Assembly (NCBI GenBank): GCA_947629945.1
Contig: CANRFR010000007.1
Coordinates: forward strand, 1 to 47,171
Source: an uncultured Clostridia bacterium
Lineage (GTDB): Bacteria; Bacillota; Clostridia; Oscillospirales; Ruminococcaceae
Length of the DNA: 47,171 nucleotides
Direction: 5' to 3'
A program made the translations under genes and the position numbers. Positions 37,840 to 47,000 of this stretch are shown one piece after another. Within the stretch, counting starts at the first letter, position 1. The number at the start of each line of letters is the position of its first letter. The notes below the pieces were generated by a model. The model was given only the letters and a program-made list of their open reading frames with translations, was not told the DNA's origin and ran no database searches.

Positions 37840-38436
37840 CTAATTCAATTTCATTGCCGAAAGCTTTTCCTCGGATACATAAGCCGAAAGTCCGCGCGTT
37901 ACCATATTAACGGCAGTATCGGCGATGAAAGAAAGATCTTCGCGGCAGTCGCCGTCAAACCACGCGGAATACAGCGACAGCACTCCGGAAATGGAGAACT
38001 CCGCCGCCGCGTTGAGCGCCGCCTCATTATCGGTAAACGCCCCCGCGTTTTTCAACGACACCGTGATAACTCTGCGAAGCATCGCTTTGATTTTTCCCTT
38101 GTTGAACAGATCGGGGTTCTGGCGCATAAGCTGCTTGAAAAAGCTTTGGCGCTGCTCGATTGTCGCGCTTACGTCGCGTATGGCGGCGCCTACGTCCAGA
38201 ATACTTTCGCCGCCGCGCCGCAAAATCTCCGAAAACTCCCCCAAGACCTCGTTTTCAAGTTCCTCGATAACGTCCGCCGCGGAACGGTAATGACTGTAGA
38301 ATGTCTTGCGGTTTATTTTCGCGCGGACGCAGATCTCCGAAATGGTTATCTTGTCAAGCCGCTTTTCGCTCATCAGTTCAAACAACGAGCTGCGAATGGA
38401 TGCTTTGGTCTTGATAACGCGTAAGTCTTCTCCCAT
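37840..38436 (-). CDS. TetR/AcrR-family transcriptional regulator
   Basis: 198 residues. The N-terminal helix-turn-helix is KASIRSSLFELMSEKRLDKITISEICVRAKINRKTFYSHYRSAADV; the C-terminal ~140 residues are an all-helical ligand/dimer domain of the TetR_C_7 kind. ATG overlaps the yajC stop by one base (TAATG), so it is translationally coupled to yajC, an unusual partner. It may control the downstream bioY-AEC pair. Confidence 0.9.
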   Translation of the reverse strand: MGEDLRVIKTKASIRSSLFELMSEKRLDKITISEICVRAKINRKTFYSHYRSAADVIEELENEVLGEFSEILRRGGESILDVGAAIRDVSATIEQRQSFFKQLMRQNPDLFNKGKIKAMLRRVITVSLKNAGAFTDNEAALNAAAEFSISGVLSLYSAWFDGDCREDLSFIADTAVNMVTRGLSAYVSEEKLSAMKLN

Positions 38437-38846
38437 TATCTGATCTCGGTTTTGCCTTTCTTGTTTTTCTTGGGCTTCGCGGCTGACTCAACGACCTCTG
38501 CGGGCGCCTCGTGCTCGGTGTTGCATTTTGCTATGGCGGATTTCAGCACGCGGATCTTAGTGCGGTCCGAACCTGTTTCGATAAGCACGGTGTCCTTGTT
38601 GACGGACACGACAAGTCCGATAATGCCGCCGTTCGTCACGATCTCATCAGCTACCTGCAAAGAATTTAGCATATTCTGCATTTCCTTGTTGCGCTTTTTT
38701 TCGGGGCGAATGATAAGAAGCCAAAAAATCAGCACCATAAGCGCCAGCGGCACTATCATCGTCAGTACTCCCAAAACGCCGCCCTGCGTTGTTGTTCCGT
38801 TGGCGGCGGTTTGTCCCGCGCTTGCCATCATAATAATACGGTTCAT
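38436..38846 (-). CDS. yajC: Preprotein translocase subunit YajC
   Basis: 136 residues: one membrane helix (about 29-49), then IIRPEKKRNKEMQNMLNSLQVADEIVTNGGIIGLV, the YajC signature, and a lysine-rich tail. YajC is an accessory of the SecDF-YajC complex; secDF is in this window at 7.3-9.7 kb. ATG follows AGGAGGAA. Confidence 0.94.
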   Translation of the reverse strand: MNRIIMMASAGQTAANGTTTQGGVLGVLTMIVPLALMVLIFWLLIIRPEKKRNKEMQNMLNSLQVADEIVTNGGIIGLVVSVNKDTVLIETGSDRTKIRVLKSAIAKCNTEHEAPAEVVESAAKPKKNKKGKTEIR

Positions 38847-38907: not shown

Positions 38908-40203
38908 TTAAAGTATAGCTATTCCCGCTTCGCCGAACGCTTTTGTTACATCCTCCAGCGCCTGACCGGAAAGTGTTGAAAGACGAACGGCGTATTGCGC
39001 GTTCCCCAAAACGGAGTTTGCTTTTTCTATAAATTTCTTGGCGGTTTGGTATTCCGCCGAGCCGCTTTCGACATTGGCGGAAGTATTTGATGAGTTCTCG
39101 GAGGTATTCGCGGTCTCATTGCTCTTAAACATTTCTGCGGTCACGTCGTAATTTACCGCAAGCTTGACGTTAGAAAGCTTTGCAGCGTCGGAAACAAGCT
39201 CCGCGTCGGTACAGTCGCGCAATTCGGCGACAATGTTCGCGCCGCTCATTTCAAGCCAAAACTCCGCGCCGTTGCTTTCGGAGTTCTTCTTTGCGGAATC
39301 CACAACGTTCCACAGCGCTTCGGTACGTTTTGCGCCGTCGCTCAACGGAAGGTCGTTAAGATAGGTGGAAATGTCAACGGTGTGGAAAGCGGGGTAGCGC
39401 GTATTCGCGCAAATGATATGTTTAAAGCCCGCTTTTGAAAGTTCGGCGGTGATATTGCCGATATAATTTGCGGCTTCCGTTTTAAACGGCGAAAGCCACG
39501 GTTTTCCGCCTTTTTCCACTCTGTTATCGTGCCACGTGCCGCCGCCCGATGACTGAGCGATTCGGAAATTGCCGTCGACATAGGCGCCGCCCATTCTGTC
39601 CATAAGCGTGTTTATCCTAGCCGCCGGAGTAAGCCCCGCCGCGGTTATCTTTTCGGCTATCTGCGCCGCAGTGAGCACTCCCGTAACGACCTCGGTGTCT
39701 TTGACGCCCTCTATGCCCGTCTTGTAGAGCACATAGCCGGTGGTGTCCTTAAGCGTCACCGCCGCAATGGAGCAGCCGGAATTTTTCGCCGCTTCAACGG
39801 CAGCCGTGAGATTTGCCTCGCTTAAAGCGGCGTCCTCCGCAAGATAGTATATCTTATCGGTTATTTGCGGCACGGGCGGTTCGCTTTCCTCTTTGCTTGT
39901 AGTGCTTGGTATAACCTCGCCGCCCGAAGCCTCGCCGCTGCTTGATTCGTTTGCGGTCTGCTCTATCTGAGAGTTTATGATGCTTGAAATGATTGCGGAT
40001 GTAGTGGACTGTTCACTTGTCGTTCCTCTCTCTTGAAGATACTTGATAAGCGGCTTGCCCAGCCCGTAACCAAGCACGCCCAAACCGCATACTATGACAA
40101 CTGTGAGTAAGACTTTAAAAAAACGCTGCGCTTTGCTTTTCTTTTTGTTGTAGAGATTGAATTTGCTGTGTTTTATTTTGATGTTTGTTTTCTTTGGTGG
40201 CAT
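38908..40203 (-). CDS. Membrane-anchored putative glycoside hydrolase (DUF4015-like)
   Basis: 431 residues. A basic N terminus, one membrane helix (about 29-51) and a Ser/Thr/Glu-rich linker (about 60-115) precede an extracytoplasmic domain. AAVTLKDTTGYVLYKT and WLSPFKTEAANYIGNITAELSKAGF recall the TIM-barrel DUF4015 family of putative glycosidases. The catalytic residues cannot be confirmed by eye. It is 27 nt downstream of the Rnf-like rnfA and probably in the same transcript. ATG follows AAAGGAG. Confidence 0.68.
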   Translation of the reverse strand: MPPKKTNIKIKHSKFNLYNKKKSKAQRFFKVLLTVVIVCGLGVLGYGLGKPLIKYLQERGTTSEQSTTSAIISSIINSQIEQTANESSSGEASGGEVIPSTTSKEESEPPVPQITDKIYYLAEDAALSEANLTAAVEAAKNSGCSIAAVTLKDTTGYVLYKTGIEGVKDTEVVTGVLTAAQIAEKITAAGLTPAARINTLMDRMGGAYVDGNFRIAQSSGGGTWHDNRVEKGGKPWLSPFKTEAANYIGNITAELSKAGFKHIICANTRYPAFHTVDISTYLNDLPLSDGAKRTEALWNVVDSAKKNSESNGAEFWLEMSGANIVAELRDCTDAELVSDAAKLSNVKLAVNYDVTAEMFKSNETANTSENSSNTSANVESGSAEYQTAKKFIEKANSVLGNAQYAVRLSTLSGQALEDVTKAFGEAGIAIL

Positions 40204-40230: not shown

Positions 40231-40833
40231 TCAAAAATCCGCCGTGTAGCCTATCAGTACGTTCAATGCGAGTGAAACCACGCCTATATAAATAAGCATT
40301 ATCGGATATCCGCGAAAAATACGCGGGATCTTGTCGCTGTCAAGCCTTTCTCGGGCGATATTCAGCAAAAAGCACGCGAGGAAAAAACCCACGCCCGAGC
40401 CGAAGCCGTAACCGATGTAGCTCGGCAGGTCGCTGCCATAGTTGGAATTGAGGAACAGCGCGCCTATTACCGCGCAGTTAAATATTGCAAGGTGCGCGTA
40501 TTTTCTCGTTTTTTTGTAGGTCTTATGAAAAAATTTCCACAAAATGAGAAGCCCCGCCACATACAGCACGCCGATAACGCCTATATAGATAAGCGGCATA
40601 AAATAGTATCCGTGTGGCAGCGCCAATACGGGCTTATCTATAAAATACGTAACAAAAGAAGCCGCCGTGGTCATTGCGGTTATGCCCAGCGTAAAGCCCG
40701 CGACGTGACCGTCTTTTCTTGAAGCGTAAATCGCCACGTTCGCGCCGAAAGCCCTGTCGAAAATGGCATTTTGGGTAAATATGGAAATCATCGCGAGACT
40801 GACTATCTTCGCGAGAACCCCGCTTAATGTCAT
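40231..40833 (-). CDS. RnfA-like integral membrane subunit with altered Fe-S ligand
   Basis: 200 residues, six membrane helices, matching RnfA/NqrE-type proteins across the whole length: the half-repeat QNAIFDRAFG, the second half NCAVIGALF, and IARERLDSDKIPRIFRGYPIMLI near the end. In canonical RnfA the first half-repeat has the cysteine of GxCPFLG. Here the equivalent stretch is GANVAIY, with N32 at the cysteine position. The second cysteine (C120) is kept. Start overlaps the rnfE-like stop by 4 nt (ATGA). Family function is Na+- or H+-coupled electron transfer from ferredoxin to NAD+; this copy is probably altered. Confidence 0.82.
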   Translation of the reverse strand: MTLSGVLAKIVSLAMISIFTQNAIFDRAFGANVAIYASRKDGHVAGFTLGITAMTTAASFVTYFIDKPVLALPHGYYFMPLIYIGVIGVLYVAGLLILWKFFHKTYKKTRKYAHLAIFNCAVIGALFLNSNYGSDLPSYIGYGFGSGVGFFLACFLLNIARERLDSDKIPRIFRGYPIMLIYIGVVSLALNVLIGYTADF

Positions 40834-41465
40834 ATCGCGCCCTCCTTTCGCTCATAGGAGGAAGAATTTTTGGATTTTTTGCGTTTTCCCGTAACGGCTC
40901 TGCAAACCGCCGCCAAAATTCCCACCAAGAAAAATCCGAAGAACGGCGATTTGGCGGCGGGCATCGGCGGGTCGAACCAGCGCTTTCCGAAAAACGTTCC
41001 GAACGCCAGCAGCTCGCGTATTATGCCCACGGCGAACGCCGCTATAGCGTATCCCAGCACATAAACGAACGCGTCTATCGCCATTATGCCGTACGGCTTG
41101 AGGTAAAAGCGGCTTTCCGTTTTGGCAAGCAGCAGCGAGTTCACCGTAAGAAGCTCTATATAAAGCATAACGCTTTCGGTCGTTTCGGGAAACCATCTTT
41201 CAAGAAGTATCACCGTCGGTATAAACATTCCCGCCGCGACCACCGCGTAAAGCAGCGTTCTCACCGTATAAACGATCTTGCGCGGAATAAATCGGCACAG
41301 CAAAATGCTCGTATAGCTCATCATAAAGAAGCTCAGCACCAATACCACAGCACGTTCGCCGGTGGTCGCCGCCACGATGATGGGCGCTGTAACCAGTCCG
41401 CTCATCAGGACAATGTTCTGCTTTAACAGACCGTCAAAGTTCGCGGAGTATTTACTTTTGCTCAT
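40830..41465 (-). CDS. RnfE-like integral membrane subunit lacking both Fe-S cysteines
   Basis: 211 residues, six membrane helices plus a basic cytoplasmic tail. NFDGLLKQNIVLMSGL, LYIELLTVNSLLLAKTESRF and AVGIIRELLAFGTFFG align with RnfE. Canonical RnfE has a cysteine in GxCPTLAV and in VVNCIILARAEAF; here the positions read TAPIIVA (A27 before P28) and VNSLLLAKTES (S110). The protein therefore cannot supply its two ligands to the membrane [2Fe-2S] cluster. It overlaps rnfD by 14 nt and rnfA by 4 nt. Confidence 0.78.
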   Translation of the reverse strand: MSKSKYSANFDGLLKQNIVLMSGLVTAPIIVAATTGERAVVLVLSFFMMSYTSILLCRFIPRKIVYTVRTLLYAVVAAGMFIPTVILLERWFPETTESVMLYIELLTVNSLLLAKTESRFYLKPYGIMAIDAFVYVLGYAIAAFAVGIIRELLAFGTFFGKRWFDPPMPAAKSPFFGFFLVGILAAVCRAVTGKRKKSKNSSSYERKEGAI

Positions 41466-42687
41466 CGGTTTTGTCCTCCTCCGCAGTCAATAGTTCCTTA
41501 TCGCTTGGCTGAATGCTCGACTGAACGCTTGGCTCGACACTTTCGGGCTTTATCCGAACACCCTCTGCGTCCACGATGTCGGCGTTTCGTTTGCTTTTTC
41601 TGCGGGGACGGCGCTGTTTGGTTATCTTGCCGTCGATTGGCGGGGTGTTGTAGCGGTATTTCTCCGGCAGCTCTATCTCCTGAGTGTCCGAAAGCCTTAT
41701 CCCGCCGACCTGTATCTGCGTTTTGGATTTTTCAAACGTGTTTATATAGGTCTTCTTCCAATAAATTACGTTTTCCACAACGCGGTCAAAACTGGAACAA
41801 AGGGCGCACGTTATCAGTTGTGCAAAAACGAAGCTGCCCTCGGTTCTTCCGAAAAACCTGAACATCATCGCAGTGCAGCCCAACATTATACCATAAAGTA
41901 TCTTGCCCGTGTTTGACTTGGGTATTCTGTAAGGCTCTGCGGCGAGAAAGACCGTTCCGAAAACGATATATCCGGAGGAAAGCTCGTATACCACGGATTG
42001 AAGCCCCGTTATCTCAGCACGCGGGAAAAAGAACGCCAGCAGTCCCGCCGTAAGCAGGCAAGAGAACGACGCCAAAACACTGTTGCTTCTGCGGAACGCC
42101 ATACATATACCGCACACTAGGATAAGTCCCGTGAAAACGGCGCCGATAGGTCCGGAGATAAGCCCCATCATCGTGTCGCCAATGCTTTGCGAAGGAACGC
42201 TGTGAAGATTGAGCGAATACTCCACCGAGCGGCTCACTGTTCCCGAAAAATTATCGAACACCGCGACCTTTTCGCCGTATTTCGGAAAATAGAGCATATC
42301 CGCCGGGTAGCAGATTATCAAAAACGCCGCTGAAATGGCGGGAGGACAGAACACGATGTTGTCCGAGCCGCCGAAAAGATGTTTTCCCACTGCCACGCAA
42401 ACCAGCGCCGACAAAATAATGAGCCACACGGACACCGTCACCGGCATCATCATGGCGGCTGCCAATCCCCAAAACGGCACCGCCGTATCCTTTATATCAT
42501 ATTTTAATTTTCGTATCTTACAGCACACAGCGTCCGTTATCATACACGCAAGAACGCTTAAAACCGCGACGAACGCAGCTCGCGCGCCCTGCAAAAACAC
42601 GGCGGGCACCAACAAAAGCGCCATTATCACAAATCTTTCGAGATAAACGCGGCGGGGTTCCCGCTCGGCGAGTTTTATCATTGACAT
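41452..42687 (-). CDS. RnfD-like (NqrB family) integral membrane subunit with long C-terminal tail
   Basis: 411 residues. Helices to about residue 300 follow the RnfD/NqrB plan, with GKHLFGGSDNIVFCPPAISAAFLI matching the conserved FGG...NPA region. The canonical covalent-FMN site (D-x-x-S/T-G-A-T) is not found; the nearest stretch is FDNFSGTVSRS at 144-154, one residue out of register. About 100 extra C-terminal residues are cytoplasmic, first basic (RRPRRKSKRN), then acidic. The start overlaps the rpe stop by one base (TAATG). Confidence 0.75.
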   Translation of the reverse strand: MSMIKLAEREPRRVYLERFVIMALLLVPAVFLQGARAAFVAVLSVLACMITDAVCCKIRKLKYDIKDTAVPFWGLAAAMMMPVTVSVWLIILSALVCVAVGKHLFGGSDNIVFCPPAISAAFLIICYPADMLYFPKYGEKVAVFDNFSGTVSRSVEYSLNLHSVPSQSIGDTMMGLISGPIGAVFTGLILVCGICMAFRRSNSVLASFSCLLTAGLLAFFFPRAEITGLQSVVYELSSGYIVFGTVFLAAEPYRIPKSNTGKILYGIMLGCTAMMFRFFGRTEGSFVFAQLITCALCSSFDRVVENVIYWKKTYINTFEKSKTQIQVGGIRLSDTQEIELPEKYRYNTPPIDGKITKQRRPRRKSKRNADIVDAEGVRIKPESVEPSVQSSIQPSDKELLTAEEDKTDEQK

Positions 42688-43340
42688 TATCCTTTCAGCG
42701 CGGCGTTAAGCTCACGCATATCCTTTGCTTTAAACAGGCTCGTTCCCGCAACAAGCACATTTGCTCCCGCGGTTCTCGCCGTTTTTGCGGTGTCGGCGTT
42801 TATGCCGCCGTCCACTTGAATATCCAACTTTGAAAAGCCGTTTTCATCGGCATAGCGGCGGATAGTTTCGACCTTGGTCATCATTTCGTTCATAAAACTT
42901 TGGCCGCCGTAACCCGGCTCCACGGTCATCACAAGTATCATATCGCACTGCGCGATGAAGTCGAGAGCGCGCTCCGCGGGTGTTTGGGGCTTTATCGCCA
43001 CAGCCGCCTTTAAGCCCCTCTCGTGGATCTTCTCCAAACACATCGGTACGTCGCAGGCGCTCTCTGCGTGAATCGTTATTATATCCGCGCCCGCGTCGGC
43101 GAACAGGTCTATTTGATGCGTCGGATCCTCAACCATCAAGTGAATATCCAGCGGCAGCTCGGTCGCTCTCCTCACGCACCTCAGCACGGGCGAGCCGTAG
43201 GTTATCTGCTCCACGAAGCGTCCGTCCATCACGTCAAAATGTATCCAATCAACGCCTGCGGCTTCGCAGCGCCGAACCTCGTTTGCAATATCTGCCATAT
43301 CACACGCCAACAGCGACGCGGAAACAATAATATCGTTTAT
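42687..43340 (-). CDS. rpe: Ribulose-phosphate 3-epimerase with non-canonical start codon
   Basis: TIM-barrel epimerase interconverting ribulose-5-P and xylulose-5-P in the pentose phosphate pathway. Family motifs: IIVSASLLACDMADI (beta-1), WIHFDVMDGRFV, DIHLMVEDP, MTVEPGYGGQSFM, DIQVDGGIN and LVAGTSLF. The first standard in-frame start is TTG at 43310, which would delete strand beta-1 with its conserved serine. Upstream in frame are ATA (43340) and ATT codons only, plus CTG at 43349. AAAAAGGA lies 9 nt before the ATA at 43340, giving about 217 residues, so I place the start there. A sequencing error (ATG read as ATA) is the alternative. Confidence 0.85.
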   Translation of the reverse strand: MNDIIVSASLLACDMADIANEVRRCEAAGVDWIHFDVMDGRFVEQITYGSPVLRCVRRATELPLDIHLMVEDPTHQIDLFADAGADIITIHAESACDVPMCLEKIHERGLKAAVAIKPQTPAERALDFIAQCDMILVMTVEPGYGGQSFMNEMMTKVETIRRYADENGFSKLDIQVDGGINADTAKTARTAGANVLVAGTSLFKAKDMRELNAALKG

Positions 43341-43345
43341 AGTTA

Positions 43346-44443
43346 TCAGTCCTTTTTCACCGCGATAAGCGGTATTGTCATTTCATCGGCGGTAAGCCCC
43401 GCATGGTTTCCCACGAAGTTTTTGCTTTTCTTGTTGTATATAGAAATGTCGCCGATACCCACAGCGATATAGTCGCCAAGCATTTCGTCGAAGCGCGGAT
43501 GCGGCGTGCCCTTACCGAAAAGCTGCCGCTCTTTGACCTCCGCTTTCGACATAAGCATAAATTTATCGACGAAATGTTCCGCGAATGCCGCTTTCAGTTG
43601 TTCCTCCATGCCGTTCTTAACAAACAGATTCAAACAACGCGGTTCTATCGACGGCATTCTCACAAGACATTCCATTATGTCGGGGTAGTCCGTGATAACG
43701 GCTTTCGGGCTGTCGATATGCCCGTGATCCGCCGTGACGAACACCAACGTATCCGACAGCTCTCCGACAAGCGCTTCAATCTCACATTCAAGCGAACGCA
43801 GCGTCGATTTGGCGCGTTCGCCGAAGCAGCCCTTGCGGTGCATTATCGTATCGGGCTGATCCCAATACGCGTAGATATATTTTTCGCTGTCCTTATTGCA
43901 CAGCCGCTTTATCTCGCCGCACAGACTGCCGAAATCTTTGGGAAACGGCTCGGAAAACGGCGCGAGAAAATGCGCCTCATATCCCGCCGCTTCTATTTGC
44001 GCACCCAGTTTATTGTACGGTACATATTTCCACGCAATGCTGTCACCTTCTATTTGTATGTCGGTGTCGAAGTCTTGGTTGAGAAAATACACCACATTTT
44101 TGTCAACTTCCGGGAAATATCCCGTCCAGCCCAGCCACGCAGTCTGTACGGGAAACAAACCGCTGTCCATCGCCGTAGTAGCGGCAACCGTTGTCGGAGG
44201 AAATACCGAGGAGTATGTTCCCGCAAGGCGGCTTCGGAAAAAGCCGTTCGGTTCTAAGTTGGCTTCAATGATGTTATTCCCCATTCCGTCAAGCAAAATC
44301 ACAACAACGTTTTTAAAGCGCCGCTCCAACAGACTGTCCGCAAGCGGCAGAGAGGGATTCAATGGTTCGGCGCCGAAATGCTTCAATATCGAGCACGCAA
44401 AATTCGCAATGCAGTTATCGTAATCGGGGTACAGAATTTTCAT
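43346..44443 (-). CDS. Alkaline-phosphatase-superfamily phosphodiesterase/nucleotide pyrophosphatase
   Basis: 365 residues of the type I phosphodiesterase (PF01663-like) fold. The metal site is visible: VVVILLDGMGNN (first Asp), PPTTVAATTAM carrying the likely Thr nucleophile, YAYWDQPDTIMHRKG and VTADHGHID, plus a late GNHAGLT. No signal peptide, so it acts in the cytoplasm. ATG at 44443 (MKILYPDYD) follows GGGAGG; a longer frame upstream lacks a ribosome site. It is the first gene of the rpe-Rnf-like run. Confidence 0.85.
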   Translation of the reverse strand: MKILYPDYDNCIANFACSILKHFGAEPLNPSLPLADSLLERRFKNVVVILLDGMGNNIIEANLEPNGFFRSRLAGTYSSVFPPTTVAATTAMDSGLFPVQTAWLGWTGYFPEVDKNVVYFLNQDFDTDIQIEGDSIAWKYVPYNKLGAQIEAAGYEAHFLAPFSEPFPKDFGSLCGEIKRLCNKDSEKYIYAYWDQPDTIMHRKGCFGERAKSTLRSLECEIEALVGELSDTLVFVTADHGHIDSPKAVITDYPDIMECLVRMPSIEPRCLNLFVKNGMEEQLKAAFAEHFVDKFMLMSKAEVKERQLFGKGTPHPRFDEMLGDYIAVGIGDISIYNKKSKNFVGNHAGLTADEMTIPLIAVKKD

Positions 44444-46649: not shown

Positions 46650-47000
46650 GGGTCCGTAAAGGCTTCGACGGGGATCTTGAAGAGCGATAAGCGAGTAGTG
46701 AGGGCGAAATCACTTTAATAGTCGCAACTTAAATTTAAACGCAGACGACGATCTCGTTTTAGCGGCTGCCTAAGCGCGCCGCCGTCATACCCTGAGTTAC
46801 CGCGGGCGGGGATATGGCGTCACTACGCGGTGAACGACCTGAGCCTGTAGCCTTGAAGCTCTTGTTGTACTAAAGGCTGCCAAACGCGTAAGCCTGTTTG
46901 TCGGCGTTCGCGCAAGGGAGATCTAATTGACAAACTGCACTCGGAGAAGGTCGCCCGGACGGGTTTTCGGACAGGGGTTCAATTCCCCTCGGATCCACCA
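46650..47000 (+). ncRNA. ssrA: Transfer-messenger RNA (tmRNA)
   Basis: A 351-nt RNA for trans-translation rescue of stalled ribosomes. The mature 5' end GGGTCCG pairs perfectly with CGGATCC before the encoded ACCA at 47000. GGGGTTCAATTCCCC is the T-arm. The tag reading frame follows AGTCGCAACTTAAATTTAAAC and its stop lies at 46771-46773. The pseudoknot region follows. No permutation (two-piece form) is seen. SmpB is not in the window. Confidence 0.97.
46741..46773 (+). other. tmRNA proteolysis-tag reading frame
   Basis: Resume codon GCA at 46741; the encoded tag is ADDDLVLAAA followed by TAA. The LAA-type end is the ClpXP degradation signal, here with three terminal alanines. Confidence 0.85.

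Follow-up and report, generated by a model that had tools for sequence, protein, structure and literature searches.

The window analyzed here, 47,171 nucleotides of an uncultured Clostridia bacterium (GenBank assembly GCA_947629945.1, contig CANRFR010000007.1, positions 1 to 47,171 of the forward strand), contains three overlapping minus-strand genes whose products very probably form a non-redox derivative of Rnf: an RnfD-like membrane protein (D-like; 41452..42687, 411 amino acids), an RnfE-like membrane protein (E-like; 40830..41465, 211 amino acids) and an RnfA-like membrane protein (A-like; 40231..40833, 200 amino acids). We propose that this trio is the membrane core of Rnf turned non-redox, and that it would work with the product of the neighboring gene, a DUF4015-like protein (38908..40203, minus strand, 431 amino acids; assigned by Pfam, a predicted model and a family alignment). 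The fuller reading, in which this Rnf-derived core and its DUF4015-like partner act as a cation-coupled transporter or transducer, is put forward tentatively, as falling somewhat short of an even chance. On the minus strand the genes follow each other in the order rpe, D-like, E-like, A-like, DUF4015-like and yajC.

Pfam matches the trio nearly full length (D-like to NQR2_RnfD_RnfE, E=1.9e-48; E-like and A-like to Rnf-Nqr, 4.8e-23 and 6e-25), and the top-ranking NCBIfam models are rnfD, rnfE and rnfA, all far under their cut-offs (89.4 bits against 207, 52.5 against 213 and 74.1 against 229). This bears out the initial annotation of the stretch, which had recognized the three overlapping genes as full-length relatives of RnfA, RnfE and RnfD. 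Its observation that the flanks lack rnfB, rnfC and rnfG also holds: among the neighbors of the trio scanned with Pfam in the window we found no RnfB, RnfC or RnfG, with Rpe on one side and a DUF4015 protein on the other. Likewise, Pfam detected no NqrF-like gene among ten proteins in and around the module, and no flavin mononucleotide (FMN)-binding domain, NqrF-like domain or ApbE encoded beside it in the window. Chance resemblance to Rnf was rejected on the basis of Pfam, NCBIfam and alignments to solved chains.

In Rnf, A and E each contribute two of the four cysteines that hold the membrane [2Fe-2S] cluster. We aligned the trio to the chains of the solved Rnf/NQR structures 9eri, 7zc6, 8ahx and 7xk3. 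The residues that fall on the cluster cysteine columns are N32 and C120 in the A-like protein and A27 and S110 in the E-like protein, the same ones that had been named from the sequence at the outset; one of the four cysteines is retained, three are lost, and the four-cysteine site of Rnf is absent. In the D-like protein, SGTV aligns with SGAT of NqrB, so that valine replaces Thr 236, which we take to be the FMN-bearing residue; the initially noted departure from SGAT is thereby confirmed. A passage in PMC12174285 describes FMN as being carried by a threonine. The FMN column of the D loop aligns poorly in the window's family (f1): MAFFT places window S154 there and the pairwise alignment with NqrB places the valine of SGTV, neither of them a threonine.

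The same losses run through the relatives. We define the D-E-A class as loci in which no C, G or B gene was found within 4 kb, and count identical sequences once. The first A-like cysteine (A-Cys1) is present in 0 of 82 distinct D-E-A sequences versus 39 of 42 from full Rnf, and neither E-like cysteine occurs in any of 85 (E-Cys1, 41/41 in full Rnf; E-Cys2, 40/41). The D threonine is found in 1 of 85 D-E-A sequences versus 37 of 41 in full Rnf, where three of the other four are gaps; the flavin loop is gapped in three of the D loci. A-Cys2 remains in 60 of 82, compared with 41 of 42 in full Rnf, with another residue in 21 and no alignment in one. The survey of D-E-A relatives suggested in the initial annotation thus finds homologues that do not carry the four cysteines, and losses that are class-wide.

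The genome of the window, a 2.75 Mb draft in 206 contigs (97.75% complete), was also searched for a second complete rnf. Another of its contigs, C121, holds the canonical set ApbE, NusG_II, Gx, rnfC, D, G, E, A and B, where NusG_II and Gx are labels assigned in this analysis. Because this complete cluster sits on a different contig, the trio is a second, separate Rnf-type set in the genome. The only FMN_bind match and the only RnfC_N match of the genome both lie in the canonical cluster, outside which the genome gave no match to a second RnfC. The canonical rnfE (1742-2489 of locus L036) is split by a frameshift in the draft assembly, through either a sequence error or a genuine loss. In our tree, the canonical Rnf of this order forms two groups, and one Rnf of each group is carried by G042, G049, G097, G107, G210 and G025.

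The module occurs in many uncultured relatives of Oscillospiraceae from the gut. Among 24 genus mates, 22 carry a low-scoring A/E pair free of internal stops, G019 shows only a fragment where its contig ends and G002 has no pair; a sequencing or assembly artefact was rejected on this ground. A GTDB scan with the D-like alignment, in which one of the two patterns was derived from the tail motif described below, yielded 79 distinct loci from the best 80 of 96 relatives, bearing the names of uncultured Oscillospiraceae, Ruminococcaceae, Ruminiclostridium and Clostridia metagenome-assembled genomes and, in a few cases, Eubacterium or Roseburia. Within 4 kb of the trio genes, none of these 79 loci shows C, G or B, some of them being cut by a contig end. 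Many share contigs with earlier locus sets, and duplicates were removed; sub-stretches of the window's own genome (L001-L005, L056-L059) were left out. L065, L055, L085 and L069 were classed by hand, L055 and L085 being two contigs of one genome that we assumed to form one locus. When 342 genomes of the class, few per order, were scanned with an A-like profile, nine among the matches listed, the window's own genome included and all of the same order, scored at least 166 bits, and the scores that follow are at most 150. Degenerate sets may occur in other orders.

Arranged by gene content, the relatives form a graded series. At stage 1, a full rnf cluster has a DUF4015 gene after rnfB, and all four cysteines are intact in L030, L060 and L061; these three loci fall in the second canonical group of the tree. 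Stage 1b comprises genus g41 of family f3 (L078, L079, L087 and L088), in which neither A-like cysteine survives in any of the 4, nor does the second E-like cysteine; the first E-like cysteine is missing in 1/4, and the D threonine is retained in 4/4. Here the three RnfB proteins found have lost the N-terminal cysteine domain (none was found in L088); RnfG is without SGAT in L088 and is represented in L079 by only an 80-residue open reading frame, the genome of L079 giving no FMN_bind match. Clusters of g41, which keep RnfC, RnfD and mostly RnfG and RnfB while their A/E cysteines are gone, look like natural intermediates. Stage 2 has the order C-D-E-A-DUF4015 without B or G (families f7, f5, f15 and one f1 genus); its RnfC-like protein has lost the GGAGFPT loop, but the four cysteines of each of its two clusters are still in place, and Pfam assignments cover two of these copies and one f24 copy. 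Stage 3 is D-E-A-DUF4015, seen in the window genus, other f1 genera and f23, and family f24 is a side branch with C-D-E-A and no adjoining DUF4015. In L069 (4480-8005) there is no C gene, and a gene for a CAP-domain protein occupies the rnfG slot between D and E.

The tree was obtained by a quick search on sequences with long branches and odd composition; in it, one branch (support 92, not starred) separates the 31 sampled stage 2, stage 3 and side-branch rows from the rest, and a topology that adds the four stage 1b (f3) rows to this degenerate set is not rejected (approximately unbiased test, p-AU 0.472). Given these two values, separate origins of the degenerate sets are not needed. A single origin with stepwise loss is allowed by the tree, not proven by it.

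Nei-Gojobori ratios of nonsynonymous to synonymous substitution (dN/dS), from 18 pairs of which one was identical and two had a saturated gene, with many dS values above 1, are 0.06-0.14 for D, 0.03-0.15 for A, 0.07-0.23 for E and 0.08-0.24 for the DUF4015-like gene; E reaches 0.35-0.44 in f7, where it has a long charged N-terminus. These values show purifying selection on the trio, and a decaying pseudogene was rejected at a dN/dS of about 0.1. Four f7 genomes (90-98% complete) carry C-D-E-A-DUF4015, and no other RnfA/E, FMN_bind or ApbE match was found in these four. Since they show none of these, the module can be maintained in genomes that yield no match to an RnfG-type domain or to ApbE. 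In G204 (two contigs), the degenerate pair is the only one, FMN_bind gives no match and ApbE is present; both FMN_bind and ApbE are present in most other genomes checked.

The predicted model of the D-like protein is of medium confidence (predicted local distance difference test, pLDDT, 65.6), and its best fold match is chain D of 9eri (9eri_D, TMt 0.74), which supports the view that the protein still folds like RnfD. Together with the class-wide loss of the ligand columns, the signature of purifying selection and the four f7 genomes, this model favors what the initial annotation had proposed, that the membrane fold was kept and the electron path lost. The C-terminal tail of the D-like protein carries the motif LSDTQEIELPEKYRYNTPPIDGK, whose columns are invariant or nearly so in a 15-sequence alignment. 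At residues ~331-354 the conserved tail motif reads LTDTQEI.LPEKYRYNTPPIDGK, and the model shows this region as low-confidence and disordered. A partner in the cytosol may dock at this tail.

The DUF4015-like protein exceeds the cut-off of Pfam PF13200 (50.2 bits against 27). In its model (pLDDT 78.6), an N-terminal helix leads through a disordered linker to a TIM-barrel, whose nearest fold is 4s1a (Cthe_0052; TMt 0.77), followed by Cwp19, GH20 and other glycosidase-like chains. We compared its QFDYxRFP motif with 30 ordinary DUF4015 proteins, which were the best-scoring ones fetched and therefore stand for the core of the family; matches of 30 bits or less were excluded. In the window protein the aspartate of the motif is alanine, the tyrosine is asparagine and the arginine is kept. 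The aspartate is present in 30/30 ordinary members versus 2/78 D-E-A-linked copies and 1/13 class 1+2 copies, and the tyrosine in 30/30 ordinary members; both are missing from nearly all Rnf-linked copies. At the second acidic column, aspartate in 30/30 ordinary members gives way to glutamate in 65/78 D-E-A-linked ones. Because we know of no enzymatic activity of ordinary DUF4015 proteins, we only infer that the DUF4015-like protein is a dead glycosidase. The mention of DUF4015 that we found in the literature is a figure legend on YkyA-DUF4015 fusions.

The link between trio and DUF4015-like protein, suspected initially from one locus, is supported as a conserved gene order. After deduplication on the last 150 residues, 85 distinct D-E-A loci remain; A is followed downstream by the DUF4015-like gene in 78 of them, and rpe lies upstream in 82. 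Six of the seven exceptions stand at contig or locus ends, with at most 222 bases past the last module gene, and the seventh is L141.

What the core might still do is suggested by the residues that it has kept. In Acetobacterium woodii Rnf, a passage in PMC11889175 ties RnfE R67 and E115 and RnfA N112, E88 and T110/T111 to Na+ entry or binding, and K32, R154 and E158 of RnfA to the RnfB cluster domain. In the window, the E-like protein retains R69 and E117 (the R67/E115 pair) and the A-like protein N119 (N112). Across the D-E-A class, R67 is kept in 84/85, E115 in 82/85 and N112 in 80/82 sequences, and RnfE R67 is shared by ordinary and degenerate sets along with structural glycine, proline and asparagine columns. 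Among the residues near the RnfB cluster domain, the K32 column is arginine in 79/82, R154 is retained in 7/82, the window included (Arg161), and the E158 column is asparagine in 43/82 and aspartate in 28/82, the window having Asp165.

The kept ion-site residues of RnfE and RnfA lean towards transport over scaffolding, and a cation-coupled transport or transducer mechanism seems to us possible rather than probable. In such a mechanism, the RnfA-RnfE pair would still switch between inward-open and outward-open states, with Na+ or H+ still bound by the Arg-Glu pair that RnfE retains and the Asn that RnfA retains; the switching would be driven by the ion gradient and no longer by electrons. The movement would carry a solute or switch the DUF4015-like domain on the exoplasmic side from one state to another; that domain would probably bind a glycan or cell-wall ligand and leave it uncut. 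The most specific version, a redox pump remade into a gradient-driven machine in which A-E alternating access powers or senses the exoplasmic dead glycosidase via RnfD, we regard as doubtful.

Several observations weigh against a transporting core coupled to a DUF4015-like partner. RnfA E88 is leucine in 78/82 D-E-A sequences (it is retained in 5/7 C-D-E-A-DUF4015 sequences), T110 and T111 are lost too, and the f24 relatives hold RnfE E115 in only 2/8; what remains, the Arg-Glu pair and the Asn, could have a purely structural role. Both phenylalanines of the NqrB constriction are present in the D-like protein, and the NqrB F338 column is phenylalanine in 96/100 degenerate sequences versus leucine or isoleucine in 42/44 ordinary ones of the same order. 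Because of this bulkier constriction with its phenylalanine at the F338 column, an open pore through the D-like protein is unlikely; moreover, a passage in PMC11889175 holds RnfD to be off the Na+ path. Since the f24 relatives have no DUF4015 beside the module and L141 (1069-4119) has D and E without A or DUF4015, with room to spare, neither A nor an adjoining DUF4015 appears to be strictly needed. Finally, the 85 D-E-A sequences are related, and the counts are not independent events. In L141, the D-E pair is followed by a gene for a prokaryotic RING-finger protein, through rearrangement or an assembly join.

The main rival, which we judge rather unlikely, is that D-E-A is a membrane scaffold that moves nothing and anchors or positions the DUF4015-like protein, and maybe cytosolic partners through the D-like tail. 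The DUF4015 pairing in 78 of 85 loci would fit, as would the conserved tail, disordered in the model, and the catalytically changed look of both the trio and the DUF4015-like protein. There is also a precedent, in that a passage in PMC12718326 reports the Bacteroides Rnf membrane complex, and not electron transport, to be required for the toxin Bte2; by analogy, the membrane part of Rnf can have non-redox roles. However, an N-terminal helix is predicted for the DUF4015-like protein itself, the RnfE/RnfA ion-site residues are kept, and f24 modules persist with no DUF4015 adjoining. That the module is the relic of a duplicated rnf in the course of being lost is very improbable: the stepwise loss of genes and ligands among relatives is what decay would leave, but the stop-free low-scoring pair in 22 of 24 genus mates, the dN/dS of about 0.1 and the newly conserved columns all speak against it.

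Two further explanations, a hybrid Rnf and an altered metal site, we consider improbable. In some complexes, the trio might stand in for RnfD/E/A beside the canonical RnfB, RnfC and RnfG of the cell, which would make a variant pump or an inhibited one. Same-genome RnfB, RnfC and RnfG, which the initial annotation had named as a possible refutation, do exist and could be supplied by the one complete canonical cluster, and window Arg161 (A. woodii R154) and Asp165 (E158) both correspond to positions near the RnfB cluster domain; but those three genes belong to a complete rnfCDGEAB of their own, accompanied by NusG_II, Gx and ApbE, R154 is kept in just 7/82 D-E-A sequences, and the four f7 genomes carry the module although FMN_bind, ApbE and canonical RnfA/E gave no match in them. 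Such a hybrid would, in addition, have neither a four-cysteine [2Fe-2S] site nor an FMN threonine, hence no known electron route. An altered metal site, in which A-like C120 and new cysteines would ligate a different cluster or metal and the complex would stay redox-active, is of the same low probability. A-Cys2 persists in 60/82 sequences, and new cysteines are conserved in the degenerate set: E-like C57 in 81/100 (isoleucine in 44/44 ordinary sequences), D-like C126 in 91/100 and C192 in 72/100. The initial concern that conserved cysteines might lie elsewhere is thus borne out for some positions, the old ligands still being lost, and a small doubt arises from them about a changed metal site. 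Yet none is as strict as the old ligands across all degenerate classes, no new A-like cysteine reaches 90% conservation across the degenerate set, A-Cys2 itself is replaced in 21/82 and unaligned in 1, and the FMN threonine is also gone, with the f7 genomes giving no FMN_bind or ApbE match.

A non-redox core derived from Rnf would resemble and depart from known systems as follows. With Rnf (RnfABCDGE; 9eri, 7zc6, 8ahx) it shares nearly full-length homology of D, E and A, the gene order D-E-A, the RnfD fold, the structural Gly/Pro/Asn columns and RnfE R67/E115, whereas it has no adjoining B, C or G, has lost three of four cysteines and the FMN threonine, and has a DUF4015-like partner. Na+-NQR (NqrB, NqrD, NqrE) is also a branch off Rnf, and a passage in PMC4014512 derives it from rnf duplication, loss of rnfB and recruitment of a reductase subunit. 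The module's D has an NqrB-like double Phe constriction; NQR, however, gained a reductase subunit and remains a redox pump, whereas the module's known redox sites are gone, and the D-like protein aligns with NqrB only from residue 144-146, so that the quinone-site N-terminal helices of NqrB have no counterpart in it. The module is a departure from Rnf separate from that of NQR, with loss of the redox sites. Urea and ammonium transporter folds, whose kinship with RnfD is stated in a passage of PMC12174285, match the D-like model weakly, ranking after all Rnf/NQR matches; the D-like protein differs from these transporters in its RnfD descent and in a constriction that is kept or bulkier. The window's DUF4015-like protein resembles DUF4015 (PF13200; 4s1a) in passing the Pfam cut-off and in its best fold, and differs in the lost Asp and Tyr of QFDYxRFP. 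The flavinylation-linked NQR/RNF-like clusters described in PMC8238504 likewise place an NqrB/RnfD-type membrane domain outside classic Rnf, but they come with ApbE flavinylation and with domains of the FMN-binding and NqrF-like kinds; genes for these do not adjoin the window module. A description of such a module was not found in the open-access literature, searched mainly by titles and abstract openings.

If the gradient-driven machine proposed above is correct, the module would be a third Rnf/NQR branch with a membrane core free of any redox cofactor. It shows a respiratory pump apparently recruited to another job in parallel to the origin of NQR, with graded relatives that supply the intermediates. 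The route of Na+ is disputed between RnfD/NqrB and the RnfA-RnfE pair, as passages in PMC12174285 and PMC11889175 indicate. With the known electron-carrying sites of the membrane core gone, the kept RnfE R67/E115 and RnfA N112 point to residues still in demand when no electrons are transferred, and the module is a protein in which to seek ion movement apart from redox.

The two flanking genes are probably not part of the complex. The conserved upstream neighbor rpe (ribulose-phosphate 3-epimerase; 42687..43310, minus strand; Pfam and NCBIfam) probably has an unusual start codon, because no ATG, GTG or TTG precedes an internal TTG (43310-43352); the frame upstream reads LITINDIIVSASLLACD. Downstream lies yajC (38436..38846, minus strand; Pfam), a frequent neighbor of the module. 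A tmRNA gene occupies 46650-47000 of the window and encodes the tag ADDDLVLAAA.

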